This document shows, in pieces, positions 13,140-21,785 of a stretch of DNA of 34,973 nucleotides. The notes below the pieces were generated by a model. That model was not told the DNA's origin and did no database searches. It saw nothing but the letters and a program-made list of their open reading frames with translations. A program made the translations under genes and the position numbers. The DNA is from Candidatus Thermoplasmatota archaeon (lineage in GTDB: Archaea; Thermoplasmatota; SW-10-69-26; JACQPN01; JAIVGT01). Each line of letters opens with the position of its first letter. The first letter of the stretch is position 1. The stretch lies in contig DATLFM010000105.1 in NCBI GenBank assembly GCA_035541015.1, positions 1 to 34,973 of the forward strand. Reading direction: 5' to 3'.

Positions 13140-14873
13140 TCACGGCGGCGGCACGAGGAGCCCGAAGCAGGCGAGCGCGACAAAGCCCATGACGACGGCG
13201 TGCTTGAGGCCCGTTCCGACGCGGCCGGTGCTCATGACGCCCGCCACGACGCCGTCGCCTACGCCCTGGACCCACGCCGCCACAAGGAAGAGCGTGCGGA
13301 AGGCCGCGAGGTCCACCTGCCCAAAGGAGAGTCCCGACGCGCCGGCGCCGGCGGCAACGGCCTCCTGGCCGGCTCCGGCCAAGGCGGGCAGGAGCGTCGC
13401 GTTCAAGACGAGCAGGATGGCAAGGAAGACGCCGAAGGCGACGTACACGATGGCGATGTACAACGACATGGCCCGCCGGCGCTCGGCCTCGAGCTCGCGC
13501 GCTTCCCGCCGCTGCTCGGAGACGACCTGCAGCACGTCGTGAACGGGGCCACCGCTCGTGGAGGCCTCCTGCACCACGGCGGCCACGGCGCGGATGCCGA
13601 CGGTTCCGACGCGGTCGGCCATGCGGTCGAGCGCCGCCTCGAACGGAACGCCCCAGCTCACCTGGTCGGCCATCTTGCGGACCTCGGGCGAGAGGGCGTC
13701 GTAGTCGGCCGACGCGGCGGCAAGGGTGGCCTTGGGAAGCGTGAGCCCGCTCTTGCGGGAGGCGGCAAGATCCCGCAGGAGGTCCGGCACGCGGTCCTCG
13801 AGACGGATGCGCTTTCGCTCCTGGAGATGGTCGTGCAGCGCCACGGGCGCCAGGGCGACAAGCGGCGCGGCAAGCGCAAGGTCGAGCCAGCGGCTGGACG
13901 GGATCTCCGACACGAGGCCCGCGCCCACCAGCGCCGCAAGGAGGGCGATGCCGATGGACGCGCCAACGCCGCCGGCGAGCAGGGCCAGGCGCCTTCGGCG
14001 CTCGGGCTCCATGCGGACGACCCAGAGGGGAGGCGGGGGCTTCTCGCGCGGGCGGACGGCCGCCGCAAGGGTGGCGGCGACGACGAAAAGGAGCACGAAC
14101 CCAAGGAGCGGCGGAAGCACGCGGGACGCGGCGGCCGCAAGGCCGGCGGACGCGAGCACGGCGACGACGCCGAACACGACGACGACGGCCAGGAGGACCG
14201 GCTGCAGAACGGCCGCCGAAAGCGCGAGACGGGCCGGCGGCGAAAGGGGCGTCGGAAGCCCGGTTGCAAGCAGGACCGCGCAGAGCGCGCCCGCGGCCGC
14301 GAGGTTGAGCCCGAAGACGGCTTCCTGCGGGCCCACGAACCGGCCGGCAAGCTCCGTGAGGAGGCCAAGGCTGATGGCGGCGGCCAGCAGGAGGCCAAAG
14401 AGCGATACGGCGACGAACGCCCCCGCGGCGGCCTTGGCACCAAGCCCCCGCCGGGGCAGGGGGTAGGCAAGCGCGACGACAAGCCCTAGGTTGGCCGCAA
14501 GAAGCCCGGCCGCCGCGGCGGCGGACAACTGCGGCACGAGCCCCTCGGCGATCCCGGAGAGGTCCAAGTGCCCGAAGCGGTGGAGCGCGGCGAGGGTCTC
14601 GACCGCAAGCGCGGCGACGAGAAGCGCCGTGCACAGGAACCCGGCCGCGATCGTGCCGGCGCGCACGGGAGCCTCGCGCGCGGCGCCCGCGCCCGGGACG
14701 GAGGCGGCGGCCAGGATCCACACGAGCGTGGCGCCAAGCAGGGCCGCCACGTAGGCCGTGAGAAGCCCCTGGCCGGGAGCGGTCTGCGCCACGAGGAACC
14801 CGGCCAGGCAGACGGCGATCGTGAGAAGCGGACCCCACAGGAGGCGGCTTTGCGTCTCCGCGACGTGGGCCAT
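13140..14873 (-). CDS. Type IV pilus platform protein, TadC/FlaJ-like, with membrane extension
   Basis: The product is 577 residues. ATG 14873 overlaps the previous TGA as TGATG. The first ~320 residues are an array of roughly eight to ten hydrophobic segments without a recognised domain. After RMEPERRRRLALL and two more helices comes one T2SSF domain at about residues 365-500: IRLEDRVPDLLRDLAASRKSGLTLPKATL, VPFEAALDRMADRVGT and VVQEASTSGGPVHDVL. The closing membrane helices begin at YIAIVYVAFGVFLAILLVL. Archaellar FlaJ normally carries two T2SSF domains in one chain; here the other copy is in the preceding gene. The protein should anchor and drive pilus assembly with the ATPase at 15765. Confidence 0.85.
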   Translation of the reverse strand: MAHVAETQSRLLWGPLLTIAVCLAGFLVAQTAPGQGLLTAYVAALLGATLVWILAAASVPGAGAAREAPVRAGTIAAGFLCTALLVAALAVETLAALHRFGHLDLSGIAEGLVPQLSAAAAAGLLAANLGLVVALAYPLPRRGLGAKAAAGAFVAVSLFGLLLAAAISLGLLTELAGRFVGPQEAVFGLNLAAAGALCAVLLATGLPTPLSPPARLALSAAVLQPVLLAVVVVFGVVAVLASAGLAAAASRVLPPLLGFVLLFVVAATLAAAVRPREKPPPPLWVVRMEPERRRRLALLAGGVGASIGIALLAALVGAGLVSEIPSSRWLDLALAAPLVALAPVALHDHLQERKRIRLEDRVPDLLRDLAASRKSGLTLPKATLAAASADYDALSPEVRKMADQVSWGVPFEAALDRMADRVGTVGIRAVAAVVQEASTSGGPVHDVLQVVSEQRREARELEAERRRAMSLYIAIVYVAFGVFLAILLVLNATLLPALAGAGQEAVAAGAGASGLSFGQVDLAAFRTLFLVAAWVQGVGDGVVAGVMSTGRVGTGLKHAVVMGFVALACFGLLVPPP

Positions 14874-15760
14874 CACCACACCCTCCCGCGAAGCGACCGC
14901 ACGGCAAGCGCGAAGAACGCCTGCGTGAGCGGGATCATGACGAGGATGAGGAGCCAGAAGACGAGGAAGGTCGACTGCTGCGAGGGCCCGGAGGAGCCCA
15001 TGACCGTGAGCATGATGATGAGGAAGATGGGGGCCGCGACGGCGACGACGAGAAAGCTTTCCGCCAGCACGCCAAGCGACTCGAGGTTGCGGCGTTGGAG
15101 GGAGGCCATGTCGCGGTGCATCTGCTCGGCCTTCGACAGAAGGTACGTGCGAAGGTCCGCTCCGCTTTGGATCGTGGCCCGCATGCCCTGCCACACGTCG
15201 GCAAGGCGCGCCGAAGCGGTACGGGGCACGGCGTCGGAGAGGGCCGTCGTGAGGTCCTTGCCCAGCCACCGCACCTCCGTCGCGATCCATCGGGCCTCGT
15301 CGGCCGCCTCGTCGTAGATGGGCTGCCGCGAGAGGCTTGCGACCATGCGGTCGGGCGTCATGCCCGAGTTTGCCATCACGGCCATGTAGTTGAGCGCGCC
15401 CGGAAGCGCGATGTCGGTCTTGGCCGCGCGCTCGCCGGCGAGGATCCGCGGCCAGGCGTAGCCGATTCCCAGCACGACGCCAGGCAGAAGCGCGGGCGCG
15501 GCAAGGGCAAGCACGGAGAGGAGCAGCGGCACCTCCACGGCCAGAAGCGGCAGCAGCACGGCGACCACGAGGAGCGCGACGAGCCCCTCCAGCGCGGCGA
15601 GCAAGGCCAGCAAGTGCACGTACGCCAGGTAGACCTCGGGCGCGCGGGGGGAATGGGCCTTGGCAAGCGCCGCCGCCAGGGAAGGATCCCGCGCGAGCTG
15701 CCGACGGGCGCCTGCGCCCAGGAGCCGGTAAGCGGCCCTTTCAAGCGGCGAGAGCGTCAC
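14873..15760 (-). CDS. Type IV pilus platform protein, TadB/FlaJ-like
   Basis: The product is 295 residues from GTG 15760, 4 nt after the ATPase stop. Two hydrophobic segments (48-70 and 76-100) precede one T2SSF domain: ALPGALNYMAVMANSGMTP, GKDLTTALSDAVPRT and MRATIQSGADLRTYLLSKAEQMHRD. Two C-terminal membrane helices follow, LVVAVAAPIFLIIMLTVMG and FWLLILVMIPLTQAFFALAV. With the next gene it makes the two-part integral-membrane platform that in archaella is a single FlaJ chain. Gene order ATPase, platform 1, platform 2 fits Tad and archaeal pilus operons. Confidence 0.88.
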   Translation of the reverse strand: MTLSPLERAAYRLLGAGARRQLARDPSLAAALAKAHSPRAPEVYLAYVHLLALLAALEGLVALLVVAVLLPLLAVEVPLLLSVLALAAPALLPGVVLGIGYAWPRILAGERAAKTDIALPGALNYMAVMANSGMTPDRMVASLSRQPIYDEAADEARWIATEVRWLGKDLTTALSDAVPRTASARLADVWQGMRATIQSGADLRTYLLSKAEQMHRDMASLQRRNLESLGVLAESFLVVAVAAPIFLIIMLTVMGSSGPSQQSTFLVFWLLILVMIPLTQAFFALAVRSLRGRVW

Positions 15761-15764
15761 GCCG

Positions 15765-17360
15765 CTAGCCTCCGACGCGCGCGATGGACACGACCGGCGT
15801 CTCGCGACGAGCGCGGGCCACGAGCTCGTCGGGCTCCCGCGTGTAGCGCTGGACGACCTTCGCCACGTCCACGTAGTTGAGGACGCCCGTGTGCACCATC
15901 CAGCGCACCACGTCGGCGCGACGGGCGAGCTCCTCGCGCATGCGCGTTTGGGTCATCTGCAATCGCTCGCCGATGGCGTCGAGGACGTAGGAACGCGGCG
16001 AGAAGCGGAAGGAATCCGTCGCGGGATCCCAGCGGAAGACCGTGTTCGTGACGATCTCGCCGACGGCCATGTCGATGCCCTTGATCTCGGAGACCTCCCG
16101 CACGCGGCGGACGAGCTTGCCGCCGACGCGTACCTGCGCCTGGATGGCCATGGCGCGGAGGTTCTCCAGCATGACGCGCGGCACGAGGATGGGCTCGTTC
16201 TCGAGGCGGTGGATGGCGCCGGCCACGCTGTCGGCGTGCATGGTGCTGAAGGTCGCGTGCCCGGTGGCCATGGCCTGGAAAAGGGTCATGGCCTCGCGGC
16301 CGCGAACCTCGCCCACGAGAAGGTACTCGGGGCGCTGGCGGAGCGCGGCGGCGAGAAGATCGTACATGTCGACGTCGCCTTCGGCCTTGAGCGCGGCCAC
16401 CTGCGCGCCGGCGCCGCGGGTGACGCCGGAGATCCAGTTGTCGTGCGGCAGGTTGAGCTCGCGCGTGTCCTCGATGGAGACGATCTTGCGCTCGCCGGGA
16501 ATGAAGAGCGAGCAGGCGTTGAGCGTGGTGGTCTTCCCGCTTGCCGTGCCGCCGACCACAAGCGCGCTCTGTCCGTGCTCGATGGCAAGCCAGAACCAGG
16601 CGGCCATCTCGGCGTCCATCGTCCCGAGCTTGACAAGAAGCGGCGGCGTGATGGGGTCGGTGCGGAACTTTCGGATCGTAAACGACGAGCCGCGGGGCGT
16701 CACCTCGCCCCCGAAGGTCGTCTGAAGGCGACTCTTGTCCGGAAGCGTCGCGTCCAGAAGCGGCTTGGCGACGCTCACGTGCTTGCCCGCGCGCTGCGCA
16801 AGGAGGAGCACGAAGGCGTCGAGCTCCGAGGCGTCGGCGAACACGATCGTCGTGCGCATGGCCTCGTGCTTGCGATGGAACAGGAAGACGGGGATCCCCG
16901 GACCGTCGCAGGAGATGTCCTCGATGTTGGGGTCGCTCATGAGCGGGTCGATGCGGCCGTAGCCTGCAAAGTCCCGCACGACGTAGTACAGGACGCGCTC
17001 CCGCCCGCCCGGATCCAACCGCACGTCGTGGTCCCGCATGAGATCCGTTGCGCGCGCGAGGAGGACTTCCTCCACCCCGTGGCCATCCTCGGGCCGTGTG
17101 GCAAGCGATCGCAGGAGGCCGTCCCGCAGGAAGGCGAGGATGCTCGTCTCGGAAGGCGAAAGCTCGGGCTCGAACACCTCGTAGAGGTAGCGGCCTTCGA
17201 CGCGGTCGTACGACAGGCGCGTGACGCAGCGGCCCTGCCGCAGGACGCGCTCCTCGATCGCCTCCCGGGAGCCGGTGAGGCCCGGCACGGCAAGCACGGG
17301 GCGGTCAGACGCCGGAGCGTCGGTCGCGGCGGATTCTCCGCGAAGCAGGCGGAAGCTCAT
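15765..17360 (-). CDS. Type II/IV secretion (pilus assembly) ATPase, TadA/FlaI-like
   Basis: The product is 531 residues. ATG 17360 overlaps the preceding stop as ATGA. The N-terminal domain contains YVVRDFAGYGRIDPLMSDPNIEDISCDG, typical of archaeal VirB11/FlaI-type ATPases. The C-terminal motor domain has Walker A VGGTASGKTT (about 268-277), the Asp box SIEDTRELNLP, Walker B YLLVGEVRGRE (about 345-355) and the His box HATFSTMHADS (about 370). All key residues are intact, so it should be an active cytoplasmic hexameric ATPase that powers pilin insertion through the two platform proteins. Confidence 0.93.
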   Translation of the reverse strand: MSFRLLRGESAATDAPASDRPVLAVPGLTGSREAIEERVLRQGRCVTRLSYDRVEGRYLYEVFEPELSPSETSILAFLRDGLLRSLATRPEDGHGVEEVLLARATDLMRDHDVRLDPGGRERVLYYVVRDFAGYGRIDPLMSDPNIEDISCDGPGIPVFLFHRKHEAMRTTIVFADASELDAFVLLLAQRAGKHVSVAKPLLDATLPDKSRLQTTFGGEVTPRGSSFTIRKFRTDPITPPLLVKLGTMDAEMAAWFWLAIEHGQSALVVGGTASGKTTTLNACSLFIPGERKIVSIEDTRELNLPHDNWISGVTRGAGAQVAALKAEGDVDMYDLLAAALRQRPEYLLVGEVRGREAMTLFQAMATGHATFSTMHADSVAGAIHRLENEPILVPRVMLENLRAMAIQAQVRVGGKLVRRVREVSEIKGIDMAVGEIVTNTVFRWDPATDSFRFSPRSYVLDAIGERLQMTQTRMREELARRADVVRWMVHTGVLNYVDVAKVVQRYTREPDELVARARRETPVVSIARVGG

Positions 17361-18733
17361 CCTCGGGTCACCTCGAACAGGACATCGACTTGCACGAGCG
17401 AGAGGGACACATCGAAGGTGGAGGGCGACGGGGAGCGGCCCAGGACCGTGACGGACGCCTGTCGGCCGCCCTTCGAAAGCGTGTACCCTTCGTCCTCGAC
17501 GAGCCCGGCGGCCGACAGCGCGCCCCTCCAGGCGGCGATCCAAAGGTCCGGCTCGTCGGTGGTGACCGACAGCGTGACCGAGGGAGCGTGCGCCGTAAGC
17601 CCGAACTCGCCGACGGCTGTGGAGCGGGCCACCGCGACGCCGTCGACGGAGAACGAGAAGCCGGGACCGCGGAGCGTCGGCACGGCAAGCGTGACGGCCG
17701 TCCAGTCCACGCCGCCGGCGTGGAGCGTTTGGACGGCAAAGGGCGGCGGCGCCTTGAGCACGGCCCCGTCGCCCTGGCGCAGGAGGAGCGCCCCGTTCTC
17801 CAGCACGTACTCGGATCCGGGGACGTAGCGCACGCCCGCGGCAAGCGAGAAGGCGCCCCCGGCGAGGGTGCGCGAGTAGTTCTGGACGAGGACGCCCGAG
17901 CCGGCGGGCGATCCGTCCGTATGCCGCGACGCGCCGGCCGCGTCGGTCCACACGGCCGCGTACTGCCCCGCGAATCCCGACGTGGCCCACTCGATCCGGA
18001 TCGGCGGAGCCGCCGCCGCGAGGACGCGATCGAACCGGTAATCCGGATGCAGCAGGTTCACGCGGTAGTTCGACTGCGAAGTGGACCCGGGCTGGCCGAC
18101 GCCTTGGTCGTAGAGCAAGCCCTCGCCGCCGCATCCGGCTGCGGAGCAGACCTTCGCGCGAAGGACGTAGCTTGGCGGCGATCCGGCCTGGCGGAGCTCG
18201 AACGAGCCCGCGAAGGCGTTGGCCCCGTCGCGGACGGTGGCGCGGATCCAATGGTCGTCGTGCCCCGCGCCGACCTGGTTCACGTTGAGACGCAGGCTTT
18301 CGAAGCCGTACGCGCCGGAGAGCGACGTGCCCGTCGAGCGCCAGACCTCGGAGGGCCCGGGCGCATCGACGAGCCGGACCGACGGCGCGGAGATCGTGAA
18401 CGGCCGGTTCCCCGGCCCAAACGAAAGAACGTGCCCGCCGGACGCGGGGCCGGTAAGCCCGAGGAAGCTTGCGCGCACCTGGCTTACCGGGAGCGCGACG
18501 GAGACGGGCGTCGGCGTGCCGTCCTCGGTCAGGCGGTCGATGGACGCCTTCAGATCGGCCATGGCCGTTCCCAGGATCCGCACGCGGGCGCCCTCGGCGC
18601 TTTTCTGCGCCGCCGGGATCTGGTACACGTGCGCCATGGACAGCGTGGCCACGAGCATGGCCACGAGGAGGATCGTGCCGACGACGACGGTCACGCCGCG
18701 CTCGTCGTCGCGTCGGCGCGAAACGGACCTCAC
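17357..18733 (-). CDS. Pilin-like secreted protein with archaeal type IV N-terminus
   Basis: The product is 458 residues from GTG 18733, overlapping the previous stop as GTGA. Residues 5-12 are charged (RRRDDERG). They are followed by the hydrophobic helix VTVVVGTILLVAMLVATLSMAHVY, the pattern of archaeal type III signal peptides cut before the hydrophobic stretch. About 420 residues of beta-rich sequence follow, with a probable disulfide pair (KVCSAAGCGG). It is far larger than a typical pilin, so it may be a minor or tip pilin or an adhesin. It sits directly before the motor genes in an operon with another pilin-like gene. Confidence 0.78.
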   Translation of the reverse strand: MRSVSRRRDDERGVTVVVGTILLVAMLVATLSMAHVYQIPAAQKSAEGARVRILGTAMADLKASIDRLTEDGTPTPVSVALPVSQVRASFLGLTGPASGGHVLSFGPGNRPFTISAPSVRLVDAPGPSEVWRSTGTSLSGAYGFESLRLNVNQVGAGHDDHWIRATVRDGANAFAGSFELRQAGSPPSYVLRAKVCSAAGCGGEGLLYDQGVGQPGSTSQSNYRVNLLHPDYRFDRVLAAAAPPIRIEWATSGFAGQYAAVWTDAAGASRHTDGSPAGSGVLVQNYSRTLAGGAFSLAAGVRYVPGSEYVLENGALLLRQGDGAVLKAPPPFAVQTLHAGGVDWTAVTLAVPTLRGPGFSFSVDGVAVARSTAVGEFGLTAHAPSVTLSVTTDEPDLWIAAWRGALSAAGLVEDEGYTLSKGGRQASVTVLGRSPSPSTFDVSLSLVQVDVLFEVTRG

Positions 18734-19482
18734 GATCCCCCTCCTCTTGCAAAGGAAACGGCTGCGGAGCGGGCGCCTTGTCCCACGTCGTTGAGCGAGG
18801 CCACGCGGTAGAAGTATGTCACGCCTTCCTCGGCCGCCTCGTCGTGGAACGTCCAATCCTGCGCCCGGCTGCTGCCCAGGTACGTTTCGTTGCCTTCGGA
18901 GGTGCCGCGGAAGACGTTGTACGCGATGATGGGAGATCCGGACCACGAGGGCGCCGTCCACGTGAGGCGCGTGGCGTTTCCGTCCTGCGAGGCCCGAAGC
19001 CCCGTGGGCGGGGGCGGCACGAGGTTCGCCGGAGGAACGCCGACGTGGATCGTCCGAAGGGCGACCACGGAGGTGCCCGAGACGATGACGACGTCGACGG
19101 TGTCGTTGACCTCGACGGTGAACTCGTTGAGGTTGCATCCCTTGCCGATCCGAAGCGCGCCGTCGACGAATCCGCCCTTGCAGGCGTCGACGAGGCCGTC
19201 GCCCGTCCAGGAACGGGGAACGCCCGAGATCGTGACGTGCACGGTCGTGCGGAAGGCCAGGAGCGGCTCGCCGCCGCGGTGGGCAAGCGCGACCCCTTCG
19301 TCGCCGGTCCCCCAGTAGTAACGGCCGGGGTGCACCGAGAGCGAAAGGTCGGCCACGACCGCGTCCGAGGGCGCGGGCATCGCGTTCATGAACAGGCCAA
19401 AGGCGGCGCCCATGAGGGCCACCGTGACGCCGAGCATGAGCACGGTCGCCACCACCTCGTTCACCGCCGCGTCGCCGGACAC
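18730..19482 (-). CDS. Type IV pilin with fibronectin type III domain
   Basis: The product is 250 residues from GTG 19482; AGGAGG lies 10 nt upstream, overlapping the stop of the preceding gene. GDAAVNEVVATVLMLGVTVALMGAAFGLF is an archaeal pilin N-terminal domain. The middle (about 40-150) is beta-rich and ends in VSGTSVVALRTIHVGVPP. Residues about 155-245 form a fibronectin III domain: PPPPTGLRASQDGNATRLTWTAP, IIAYNVFRGTSEGNETYLG and TYFYRVASLNDVGQGARS. A pilin with an FN3 head suggests an exposed binding function. It is likely cut by an archaeal prepilin peptidase, which is not in this window. Confidence 0.83.
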   Translation of the reverse strand: MSGDAAVNEVVATVLMLGVTVALMGAAFGLFMNAMPAPSDAVVADLSLSVHPGRYYWGTGDEGVALAHRGGEPLLAFRTTVHVTISGVPRSWTGDGLVDACKGGFVDGALRIGKGCNLNEFTVEVNDTVDVVIVSGTSVVALRTIHVGVPPANLVPPPPTGLRASQDGNATRLTWTAPSWSGSPIIAYNVFRGTSEGNETYLGSSRAQDWTFHDEAAEEGVTYFYRVASLNDVGQGARSAAVSFARGGGS

Positions 19483-19494
19483 CGTCGCTTCCTC

Positions 19495-20277
19495 CTACCG
19501 GATCTTGCGTTCGAGCAGGCCGCCGACGATCTCGAGCGAGCCGCCGCGCAAGCGGTACTCGATCCAGTCGCGCGTGGCCGTGCCCTCCAGGCCCCGGACG
19601 CGGAGGAACGTGCGCGCGTCCTCGCTCTCGCGGAACTCGATGGCGCCCTGCGTGAGACGTAGGAAGAGCCCGAGCTCCCGCTGCCCGTGCACGTCCGAGT
19701 CCATGGACAGCACGGCCGTGGCGCCCCAGCGGCGCGCCAGTGCGAGGCAACGTTGGAGCCACGCGTGGCCGTCCTCGGCCGCGCGCGAGCCCGCGCGAAG
19801 GGCAAGGTCCGTGAGGCCGAGCACGAGAAGTCGAAACGCGGGTGGTTCGCCCAGGCGCTTGCGCGCGGCGTCCATGGCCTCCAGCAGGCTTCCGGGATCG
19901 CTTGGATCCTTCACGCGCACGGCCAGCGGGTCGGTCGCGTCGTCGCCAAGCAGGCTTCCGTAACCGTCCACGTAGGCCACGTGGCCCTTGGCCTCGTGCG
20001 CCGCAAAGTGCGGCCCAAACGTGGAGACGAGCGCGCGGAACTCGCCGGGGAACATGCTCGTCAGGCAGACGACGAGCGGTTCCCCCGAGAGGGCGGACGC
20101 GTGGGCGTATCCCGCGGCCACGAGCTCCTTTCCAGAGTAGGGCGGGCCCATGAGCAGGCACGCGACGCCGCGGGAGAGCCCGCCGCCCAGAAGCTCGTCG
20201 AGGACCGGATGGCCGGTGGGGATGCGGGATCCGCCCGCGGCCGGGAGGTCCGAAGGCTTTGCCGCTTGCGGGTCCAT
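19495..20277 (-). CDS. RecA-superfamily (KaiC/FlaH-like) ATPase with altered P-loop
   Basis: The product is 260 residues from ATG 20277, which has AGGGG suitably upstream; the ATG at 20283 is also possible. IPTGHPVLDELLGGGLSRGVACLLMGPPYSGKE is the KaiC/RadA-like opening. The P-loop GPPYSGKE has Glu where Ser or Thr normally binds magnesium. The Walker B strand FRLLVLGLTDL has no acidic residue at its end. FlaH, a KaiC-like nucleotide-binding partner of FlaI, sits in archaellum operons, and this gene has the corresponding place. I infer a nucleotide-binding or purely structural regulator of the pilus motor rather than an active ATPase. Confidence 0.8.
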   Translation of the reverse strand: MDPQAAKPSDLPAAGGSRIPTGHPVLDELLGGGLSRGVACLLMGPPYSGKELVAAGYAHASALSGEPLVVCLTSMFPGEFRALVSTFGPHFAAHEAKGHVAYVDGYGSLLGDDATDPLAVRVKDPSDPGSLLEAMDAARKRLGEPPAFRLLVLGLTDLALRAGSRAAEDGHAWLQRCLALARRWGATAVLSMDSDVHGQRELGLFLRLTQGAIEFRESEDARTFLRVRGLEGTATRDWIEYRLRGGSLEIVGGLLERKIR

Positions 20278-20286
20278 GGGCATCCC

Positions 20287-21054
20287 CTAGGCCGGTCCGG
20301 TCGCGGGTTTGGCGGAGGCGCCCGCCAGCGGTCGATCAACGGCGGCCGGGCCTTCGACGAGAGGATCGTCGGGTGCGGCCGGCAAGCCTTCCACGGGGCT
20401 CGGTTCGGGAGCTTGATCCACGGTTTCGTCGCGCGGAGCGTCGGAGCCGTTGCCGTTGCCGTTTCCATTGCCGTTGGCGTGCACGTGGAACTCCGAGTGG
20501 CCGTTGCCGCCGTTGGCGGCCGCGGCAAGATCGGGGACCGGCACCTCCTGCGCAAGCGGCACCGTGGGCTCCTTCACCCCGCCGCTTCGCATGAGCATGA
20601 CCTTGCGGACGGTCTCGGCGTCGGCGAGCGCGTACTTGGAGCCGTTGCGCTCGCGGAGCTTCACAACCACCTGCGCCTGCACCATGCGCGAGAGATGGAA
20701 GCCAAGCGTGGAGTCGGCGCAGCCCAGGGAGCGCCGGAGCTCCGTGCGGCTCATGGGCCGGACAAGGAGAAGCGTCCCGATGCGCCGCGGCACGCGCCGC
20801 GCGAAGAGCGCAAGCGCCGGCCGAAGGCCGGGCTCGTGGTTTCCGGCGAGGAAGAAGCGCTTGTAGCCTCCGTCCTCGAGCTCGACGAGAATCCCCCGCC
20901 GCACGAGGCGGTCGAGGTGGTGTCGCAGCTGGCCCACCGACGAGAGGTTGGCCGCGCGCGCAAGCCCCCGGAAATGGATGCCGGGCTGCTCCTGCACGAC
21001 GCGGCAGACGCGAAGGCTCACCTCGCTCCACGGGTGGTCGTCGTAGTGTCCCAT
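20287..21054 (-). CDS. Tandem winged-helix regulator with polar C-terminal tail
   Basis: The product is 255 residues from ATG 21054, overlapping the previous stop as TGATG. The first winged helix is at about 17-75 (VQEQPGIHFRGLARAANLSSVGQLRHHLDRL, GGYKRFFLAG). The second is at about 90-150 (RRVPRRIGTLLLVRPMSRTELRRSLGCADSTLGFHLSRM). Most of this matches the regulator at 12261. The last ~80 residues are low-complexity and polar, including NGNGNGNGNGSD and many Pro and Glu. It is cytoplasmic. Its place inside the pilus operon suggests that it controls that operon, but no target site is proven. Confidence 0.86.
   Translation of the reverse strand: MGHYDDHPWSEVSLRVCRVVQEQPGIHFRGLARAANLSSVGQLRHHLDRLVRRGILVELEDGGYKRFFLAGNHEPGLRPALALFARRVPRRIGTLLLVRPMSRTELRRSLGCADSTLGFHLSRMVQAQVVVKLRERNGSKYALADAETVRKVMLMRSGGVKEPTVPLAQEVPVPDLAAAANGGNGHSEFHVHANGNGNGNGNGSDAPRDETVDQAPEPSPVEGLPAAPDDPLVEGPAAVDRPLAGASAKPATGPA
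20445..20478 (-). repeat. Short tandem repeat coding for Asn-Gly pairs
   Basis: Six-base units, gccgtt with variants, are repeated about five times and encode NGNGNGNGNG in the tail of the regulator. Such a tract can vary in length by slippage. Confidence 0.6.
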
Positions 21055-21785
21055 CAGGCATCCCTCCGGAGGCGCGAGGCGACAAGCGCCGCCGCGCCAA
21101 GGCCGCCGGCAAGCGCGACAAGCTCGGGGCCGGGCAGCTTCTTGCCCGAGAGCAAGCCGCCGCCGAAGCCGCCGTTTGAGCCGGGGCCGCCGCCGGAGCT
21201 CACGCTTGCGCTCGCCTGATTCACGCCAAGGAGCGTGAACGAGAACAGGCTCGCCTCGCTGCCGTCGTCCTGGCGGACGGGCGTGTACCCCCGGTCGAAG
21301 GCCATGACGAGCGTCTCGAGGCGGAAGGCGCCCCGCTCCGAGACGCCCACGCGCAAGCCGATCTCGATGGGCGCGCCAACGGGCGCGTCGAGCACGTGCA
21401 CCCACAGGTTCGCCTCGTTGGGCCTCTCGTGGTCCACCTTCGTGGTGACCACGGGCCCGGACGAGGTCGCAAAGCGCGTGACGGCAAGAGACACCGGGCT
21501 TCCCCCGTCGTCCGTCACGTTGCGGACCGAGAACAGCAACCAGCGGGTGTCGCGGTCGGAGAAGCTCGTGTGGAGCGTCACCGACACGACAAGATCGATG
21601 GGAGCGCCGCGGACGTCCCGCTGGCTCTCCATGGCGATCGTTCCAAACTGGTTGCATTGTGTGTTCCATCCGGCCACGGAGCAGCCCTGCGCCGCCGCGG
21701 GAAGGCTCCCGACGGCGACGATCAGAACGACGATGACGGACCCCATACGGCCGGCGCGACGGAGCGCGCGATGGTGCGTGTACAT
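21054..21785 (-). CDS. Secreted, C-terminally anchored surface protein
   Basis: The product is 243 residues from ATG 21785, preceded by AGGGGGAACC. A signal peptide (MGSVIVVLIVAVGSLPAAAQ) ends near residue 34, and Cys residues follow at CSVAGWNTQC. A single beta-rich domain has an Ig-like pattern (IDLVVSVTLHTSFSDRDTRWLLFSVRNV, ANLWVHVLDAPVGAPIEIGLRV). A Gly/Ser linker leads to a C-terminal membrane helix (LVALAGGLGAAALVASRL) with an RRDA tail inside. It is the first gene of the pilus operon and is coupled to the regulator by TGATG, so it may be a membrane-bound accessory or sensing partner. I do not recognise the family. Confidence 0.72.
   Translation of the reverse strand: MYTHHRALRRAGRMGSVIVVLIVAVGSLPAAAQGCSVAGWNTQCNQFGTIAMESQRDVRGAPIDLVVSVTLHTSFSDRDTRWLLFSVRNVTDDGGSPVSLAVTRFATSSGPVVTTKVDHERPNEANLWVHVLDAPVGAPIEIGLRVGVSERGAFRLETLVMAFDRGYTPVRQDDGSEASLFSFTLLGVNQASASVSSGGGPGSNGGFGGGLLSGKKLPGPELVALAGGLGAAALVASRLRRDA

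Follow-up and report, generated by a model that had tools for sequence, protein, structure and literature searches.

A probable clade 2 type IV pilus operon with a degenerate KaiC-like protein in a Candidatus Thermoplasmatota archaeon

We have described here a compact operon on a 34,973-nucleotide stretch of DNA (the window) from a Candidatus Thermoplasmatota archaeon, which is contig C105 (DATLFM010000105.1) of a draft archaeal genome (GCA_035541015.1) with a size of 2.2 Mb and a completeness of 96%. The operon occupies positions 13140–21785 of the minus strand and contains eight genes, with neighbours either overlapping by 1–4 bases or spaced 3–12 bases apart. These encode a secreted or surface protein, a regulator, a KaiC-like protein, two pilin-like proteins, a motor ATPase, and two platform proteins with one T2SSF domain each (P0001 to P0008, in order of transcription). 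A first-pass annotation of the sequence had listed the same eight genes, all of which are present where it placed them, and, for all but P0001, the identities that it assigned are backed by the Pfam and NCBIfam profile searches used for the domain calls. We consider it likely that the operon serves to assemble a euryarchaeal type IV pilus of clade 2, with the degenerate KaiC-like protein capping or tuning the motor.

The motor ATPase P0006 (15765–17360, minus strand, 531 residues) has a T2SSE domain (PF00437, 4.9e-33) with intact Walker motifs, and its best match in the PDB is 2oap, the Archaeoglobus GspE2 (441 bits), followed at a distance by FlaI (281 bits) and CpaF/TadA (135 bits). In a tree of 40 ATPases, from which EpdA was left out, a branch supported at 100/100 parts the FlaI proteins, including two from the same genome, from the pilus ATPases, and P0006 belongs to an eight-member clade of Thermoplasmatota pilus ATPases (100/99) that includes relatives with the same gene order. 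Methanomicrobia ATPases and the A. fulgidus GspE2 fall in the larger tree group of P0006, which is thus a member of the euryarchaeal pilus (GspE2, clade 2) group by sequence and neither a FlaI nor a TadA.

The platform is encoded by P0007 (14873–15760, minus strand, 295 residues, GTG start) and P0008 (13140–14873, minus strand, 577 residues), each with a single T2SSF domain (PF00482, 3e-13 and 1.9e-17 respectively). Because P0007 aligns to positions 18–245 of the FlaJ model NF004704 and P0008 to positions 228–539, the two together make up one split platform, with an N half and a C half. The split is the rule, as it is seen in all 99 loci that have a readable ATPase of this group and both complete halves, with no fused form found, whereas FlaJ is fused in the archaellum loci of that set. 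Two TadC genes in many clade 2 loci were noted by Makarova in 2016 (PMC4858521), the same kind of split is present in Tad and Epd systems (Denise et al. 2019, PMC6668835), and in the same phylum Cuniculiplasma has a published split platform made up of CdiPFa and CdiPFb (PMC12448462). We therefore rejected the split platform as a novelty. The T2SSF domain of P0008 is preceded by a long hydrophobic N-terminal part, and extensions of this kind take the C-half protein from about 290 to 835 residues (window 13140–14873; L041, L044, L060). We also note that in many Thermoplasmatota pilus loci (L051, L054, L066, L071, L088, L094, and others) two ATPases flank the split platform, in the order ATPase-FJ_N-FJ_C-ATPase.

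Upstream of the ATPase gene lie two genes for pilin-like proteins, both with GTG starts. P0004 (18730–19482, minus strand, 250 residues) combines a Pilin_N domain (PF07790, 5.4e-7) with a fibronectin III domain (PF00041, 1.1e-6). P0005 (17357–18733, minus strand, 458 residues) is a long pilin-like protein. Inspection of its sequence shows a class III signal peptide, ERG|VTVVVGTILLVAM, and its match to DUF7289 is borderline (PF23960, 4.1e-6, 26.9 bits where the cut-off is 27). Its homologues sit immediately before the ATPase gene in many relatives, and by its length, signal peptide, and position it is a candidate long Ig-like minor pilin of the arCOG02911 type, with the DUF7289 match just short of the threshold.

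The KaiC-like protein P0003 (19495–20283, minus strand, 262 residues) matches the KaiC family (PF06745, 3e-11), and its AlphaFold2 model, which has a predicted local distance difference test (pLDDT) score of 87, finds 2dr3 as the best fold match in the PDB, with 2zts and KaiC also among the best, so that its nearest folds are archaeal KaiC-like proteins and KaiC itself. As modelled, P0003 has a KaiC/RecA core fold, and the earlier identification of a KaiC-superfamily protein within the pilus operon holds. The first-pass annotation had also called this RecA-like protein odd, which is justified on grounds beyond the reach of that annotation, namely its degenerate nucleotide site. Its P-loop reads GPPYSGKE and the Walker B aspartate is replaced by leucine. 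Alignment places it in a family (KaiC_GKE) in which the P-loop is GPPFxGK/R followed by glutamate or, less often, by aspartate, glutamine, or alanine, and by serine or threonine in none of 34 distinct members; most members keep the Walker B aspartate, with arginine in a Methanomassiliicoccales group, and the C-terminus of the family is conserved. The identification of P0003 as FlaH was rejected because it lacks the GKS P-loop, because no FlaH structure is present among the top 50 fold matches of its model, and because the genome has a real FlaH on contig C94, with an intact P-loop (GEYGAGKS).

Of the 293 Thermoplasmatota genomes sampled, 94 have KaiC_GKE, and among them is Methanomassiliicoccus, which carries it in its pilus locus. 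In relatives KaiC_GKE is the last gene of a small cassette. The product of the middle gene, found in 35 of the 293 genomes (with two or three of the 35 matches spanning the GTPase part only), joins a degenerate KaiC domain to a Ras/Arf-like GTPase whose P-loop is intact. The KaiC_GKE gene adjoins or is near this KaiC-GTPase gene in 24 distinct loci that we read, mostly directly downstream of it, and in 23 of the 24 a Roadblock/LC7 gene stands beside these genes, usually no more than 30 bases upstream. In contig C31 of genome G003 the order is receiver-domain gene, Roadblock, KaiC-GTPase, KaiC_GKE, pilN, pil2, ATPase, FJ_N, and FJ_C, and contig C121 of G213 has the same order from Roadblock through FJ_N, where the contig ends. 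A search for the operon's gene order in other genomes had been proposed, and the run KaiC_GKE-pilN-pil2-ATPase-FJ_N is present in both. Seven further genomes have the cassette beside ATPase and platform genes, except for G002, in which it lies 8 kb away. G003, G213, G002, and G128 all have ATPases in the clade of P0006, and all four carry the cassette.

The cassette is found in several Thermoplasmatota families (L052:12118–15255, L206:1–2236, L050, L059, L175, L209, L211, L221, L222, and others), and in L052 a receiver-domain gene lies upstream of it. The named records among the relatives are mostly Thermoplasmatota. A record with the title 'Proteobacteria bacterium isolate Centralia_MAG_189' (L098, JAJPHT010000022.1) has the same contig as G004, which is an archaeal genome, and its label is probably wrong.

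Of this cassette, the operon in the window retains just the final gene, with the genes for the secreted protein and the regulator occupying the freed place. Searches of the genome's contigs, on which all of our statements about the whole genome rest, did not find the KaiC-GTPase fusion in the window or elsewhere in the genome, and found no Roadblock gene in the window or near the operon, with a single weak Roadblock match on contig C97. The simplest history would be that the lineage of the window once had the cassette and then lost its Roadblock and KaiC-GTPase genes. The 2016 study of Makarova (PMC4858521) had already noted that Roadblock proteins occur near archaeal pili, that loci of clade 2 pili contain KaiC ATPases, and that a variety of regulators is present in archaeal type IV pilus loci. 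Our searches of open-access papers for KaiC-GTPase fusions and for a Roadblock role in the control of archaeal pili returned only the general remarks of that study, and in the open-access literature we found no description of either the cassette or the family in which glutamate replaces the P-loop serine or threonine.

In the archaellum ArlH sits on ArlI, and in Myxococcus MglB and MglA govern pili. By analogy with these systems we propose that ATP hydrolysis in the ring of P0006 would lift pilins from the membrane into a filament through the FJ_N/FJ_C platform, the subunits being P0004 and P0005 and probably also the short pilins encoded on contig C33, with the KaiC-like protein docked under the ATPase ring in the manner of ArlH, where it would cap or tune the motor without hydrolysing ATP. 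In relatives the Roadblock-GTPase pair would set the state of KaiC_GKE, likely as an MglB/MglA-like switch that turns pili on and off or sets their place, and in the lineage of the window this GTPase control would be gone, its place in the operon being taken by a transcription regulator. On this reading the operon would assemble a pilus. The broader idea, that Roadblock, KaiC-GTPase, and the glutamate P-loop KaiC form a Thermoplasmatota pilus control module acting on the clade 2 motor in an MglB/MglA-like way, and that the window represents a branch without the GTPase half in which a pseudo-ATPase KaiC ring sits on the motor, is more tentative, and we regard it as somewhat short of an even proposition.

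Gene neighbourhoods favour the view that P0003 tunes the pilus motor: in at least 22 of the 94 genomes (a minimum, as the pairs were matched by hand), from about 13 families, KaiC_GKE is no more than 10 kb away from a clade 2 ATPase, where a crude estimate would predict about 2.4; because many of the 22 genomes are related, this estimate is no true probability. Other considerations weigh against it. The contact between P0003 and the motor is one that we infer from ArlH and from gene order. P0003 has evolved faster than all other members of its family and forms a long branch, with 23–30% identity to the rest, so how exactly it lost its function is judged from an alignment. In most genomes that have KaiC_GKE it is not seen near a pilus ATPase, and the family may therefore have other roles.

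A different possibility is that P0003 is no part of the pilus and, as a free regulator or as a remnant in decay, has nothing but the transcript in common with the pilus genes. Its rapid evolution, the loss of both the Walker B aspartate and the P-loop serine or threonine, the lack of its GTPase partner in the contigs searched, and the frequent separation of the family from pilus ATPases would all fit this account. However, the gene has an unbroken reading frame and is closely packed with the pilin genes, the fold is confidently predicted, the conserved C-terminus of the family is retained, and the operon position of KaiC_GKE is the same in G003 and G213. We consider this account unlikely, if still worth some weight.

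The first-pass annotation saw in the operon a mixture of archaellum and Tad features, and neither the mixture nor its components fits well. A derived or ancestral archaellum, with a FlaI-like ATPase, a FlaH-like KaiC protein, and a split FlaJ but without archaellins, could draw on the NCBIfam FlaI model being the top match of P0006 (408 bits) and on P0007 and P0008 matching the two halves of FlaJ. The FlaI score is nonetheless below the cut-off of 550, the ATPase tree sets P0006 apart from FlaI, P0003 has neither the P-loop that FlaH keeps nor a FlaH among its 50 closest folds, and the genome has a real archaellum elsewhere, with archaellins, FlaC/D/E, FlaH, two FlaI, and a fused FlaJ; we think it very improbable that the operon is a second one. 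A Tad- or Epd-type pilus (TadA, TadB, and TadC) with an added KaiC protein would account for the two single-T2SSF proteins, which are present in Tad and Epd (PMC6668835), but these are not diagnostic because they are also common to clade 2 pili and split platforms are general across the euryarchaeal pilus group. Moreover, the TadA model scores 147 bits against P0006 (cut-off 373) compared with the 408 bits of FlaI, the CpaF/TadA structure is far behind GspE2 among the structure matches, and genes for TadZ, a secretin-type protein, and Flp pilins are absent from the operon, and a Tad or Epd identity is in our view extremely improbable. We rejected a hybrid of the two on the basis of the ATPase trees (the phylogenetic comparison that had been suggested as a check), the structure matches, and the separate archaellum, and the features that had suggested it, a split platform and a KaiC protein and regulator in one locus, are standard or known in archaeal type IV pili, with P0003 not being FlaH.

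The operon is itself of a known type and extends the clade 2 euryarchaeal type IV pili (PilB3/PilB4, GspE2 type; PMC4858521), with which it shares the ATPase group, the two platform genes of many members, and the presence of KaiC ATPases and regulators in loci whose major pilins are often encoded in trans. It differs in that its KaiC-like protein is from the degenerate-P-loop family and in that a secreted protein and a helix-turn-helix (HTH) regulator head the operon. The CdiP pilus of Cuniculiplasma divulgatum (PMC12448462) is from the same phylum and has separate N-half and C-half platform genes, but has two ATPases, and the passages of that report that we consulted mention no KaiC-like gene or built-in regulator. 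In the archaellum (ArlH-ArlI-ArlJ), a single operon likewise encodes a KaiC-fold protein together with a motor ATPase and a platform, although the ATPase and KaiC-like protein of the window are in other families, the platform of the window is encoded by two genes rather than by one two-T2SSF FlaJ, and Pfam searches identify no archaellin, ArlF/G, or ArlC/D/E among the eight genes. The cassette of the relatives, which is absent from the window, resembles the Myxococcus MglB-MglA(-RomR) system in pairing a Roadblock protein with a Ras-like GTPase beside type IV pilus genes, with a receiver-domain gene upstream in G003, but its GTPase is fused to a degenerate KaiC, a second KaiC protein follows, and its function is putative.

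The evolutionary source of ArlH is unknown (PMC9087265), and the proposed control module, if correct, would give it a pilus-side relative. The cassette bears on that question and on the use of small GTPases outside the Asgard archaea, and its position beside archaeal pili offers a testable handle on their control. The KaiC-like gene of the window, as the putative surviving third of a GTPase cassette, may thus hint at how archaea turn pili on and off.

The two genes at the head of the operon are less widely shared. P0001 (21054–21785, minus strand, 243 residues), recognized from its open reading frame and its overlap with the next gene, appears by eye to have a signal peptide, a glycine-rich linker, and a C-terminal transmembrane anchor, but matches no Pfam or NCBIfam family and has no homologue in 40 related loci. 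P0002 (20287–21054, minus strand, 255 residues) contains two HTH domains, HTH_HVO_0163_N (PF24266, 7.7e-14) and HTH_20 (PF12840, 4.5e-7), and so the operon does have a built-in regulator, as had been claimed. It may control its own operon; it has about 20 paralogous matches in its own genome and was not found in the related pilus loci compared. A second two-HTH regulator, P0009 (12261–12830, minus strand, start provisional; PF24266, 1.1e-13), which was missing from the earlier list, is 69% identical to P0002 over 147 residues and is separately placed about 290 bases downstream of the operon. Paralogous regulators are therefore present both near the head of the operon and past its end, and a search for operators upstream of both genes found no common word of 10 bases or more and no inverted repeats with arms of at least 7 bases.

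Other parts of the machinery are distributed across the genome. The absence of an archaellin and a prepilin peptidase, noted in the first-pass annotation, holds for the window but not for the genome, and it is unremarkable given the archaellum on contig C94, three short pilin genes in tandem on contig C33, and a prepilin peptidase gene on contig C110. The C94 locus is a canonical archaellum locus with several archaellins, a FlaC/D/E-like gene, FlaH, and a two-domain FlaJ, and is unusual in having two tandem FlaI-type ATPases (L042:7604–10893), as the archaella known so far reportedly possess a single motor ATPase (PMC12448462). Another clade 2 pilus operon lies on contig C65 and includes a KaiC-like gene (L041:11208–11924), the product of which has a wholly erased P-loop (ADPSNALS) and belongs to a separate, order-conserved family that is also present in L044, L046, and L060.

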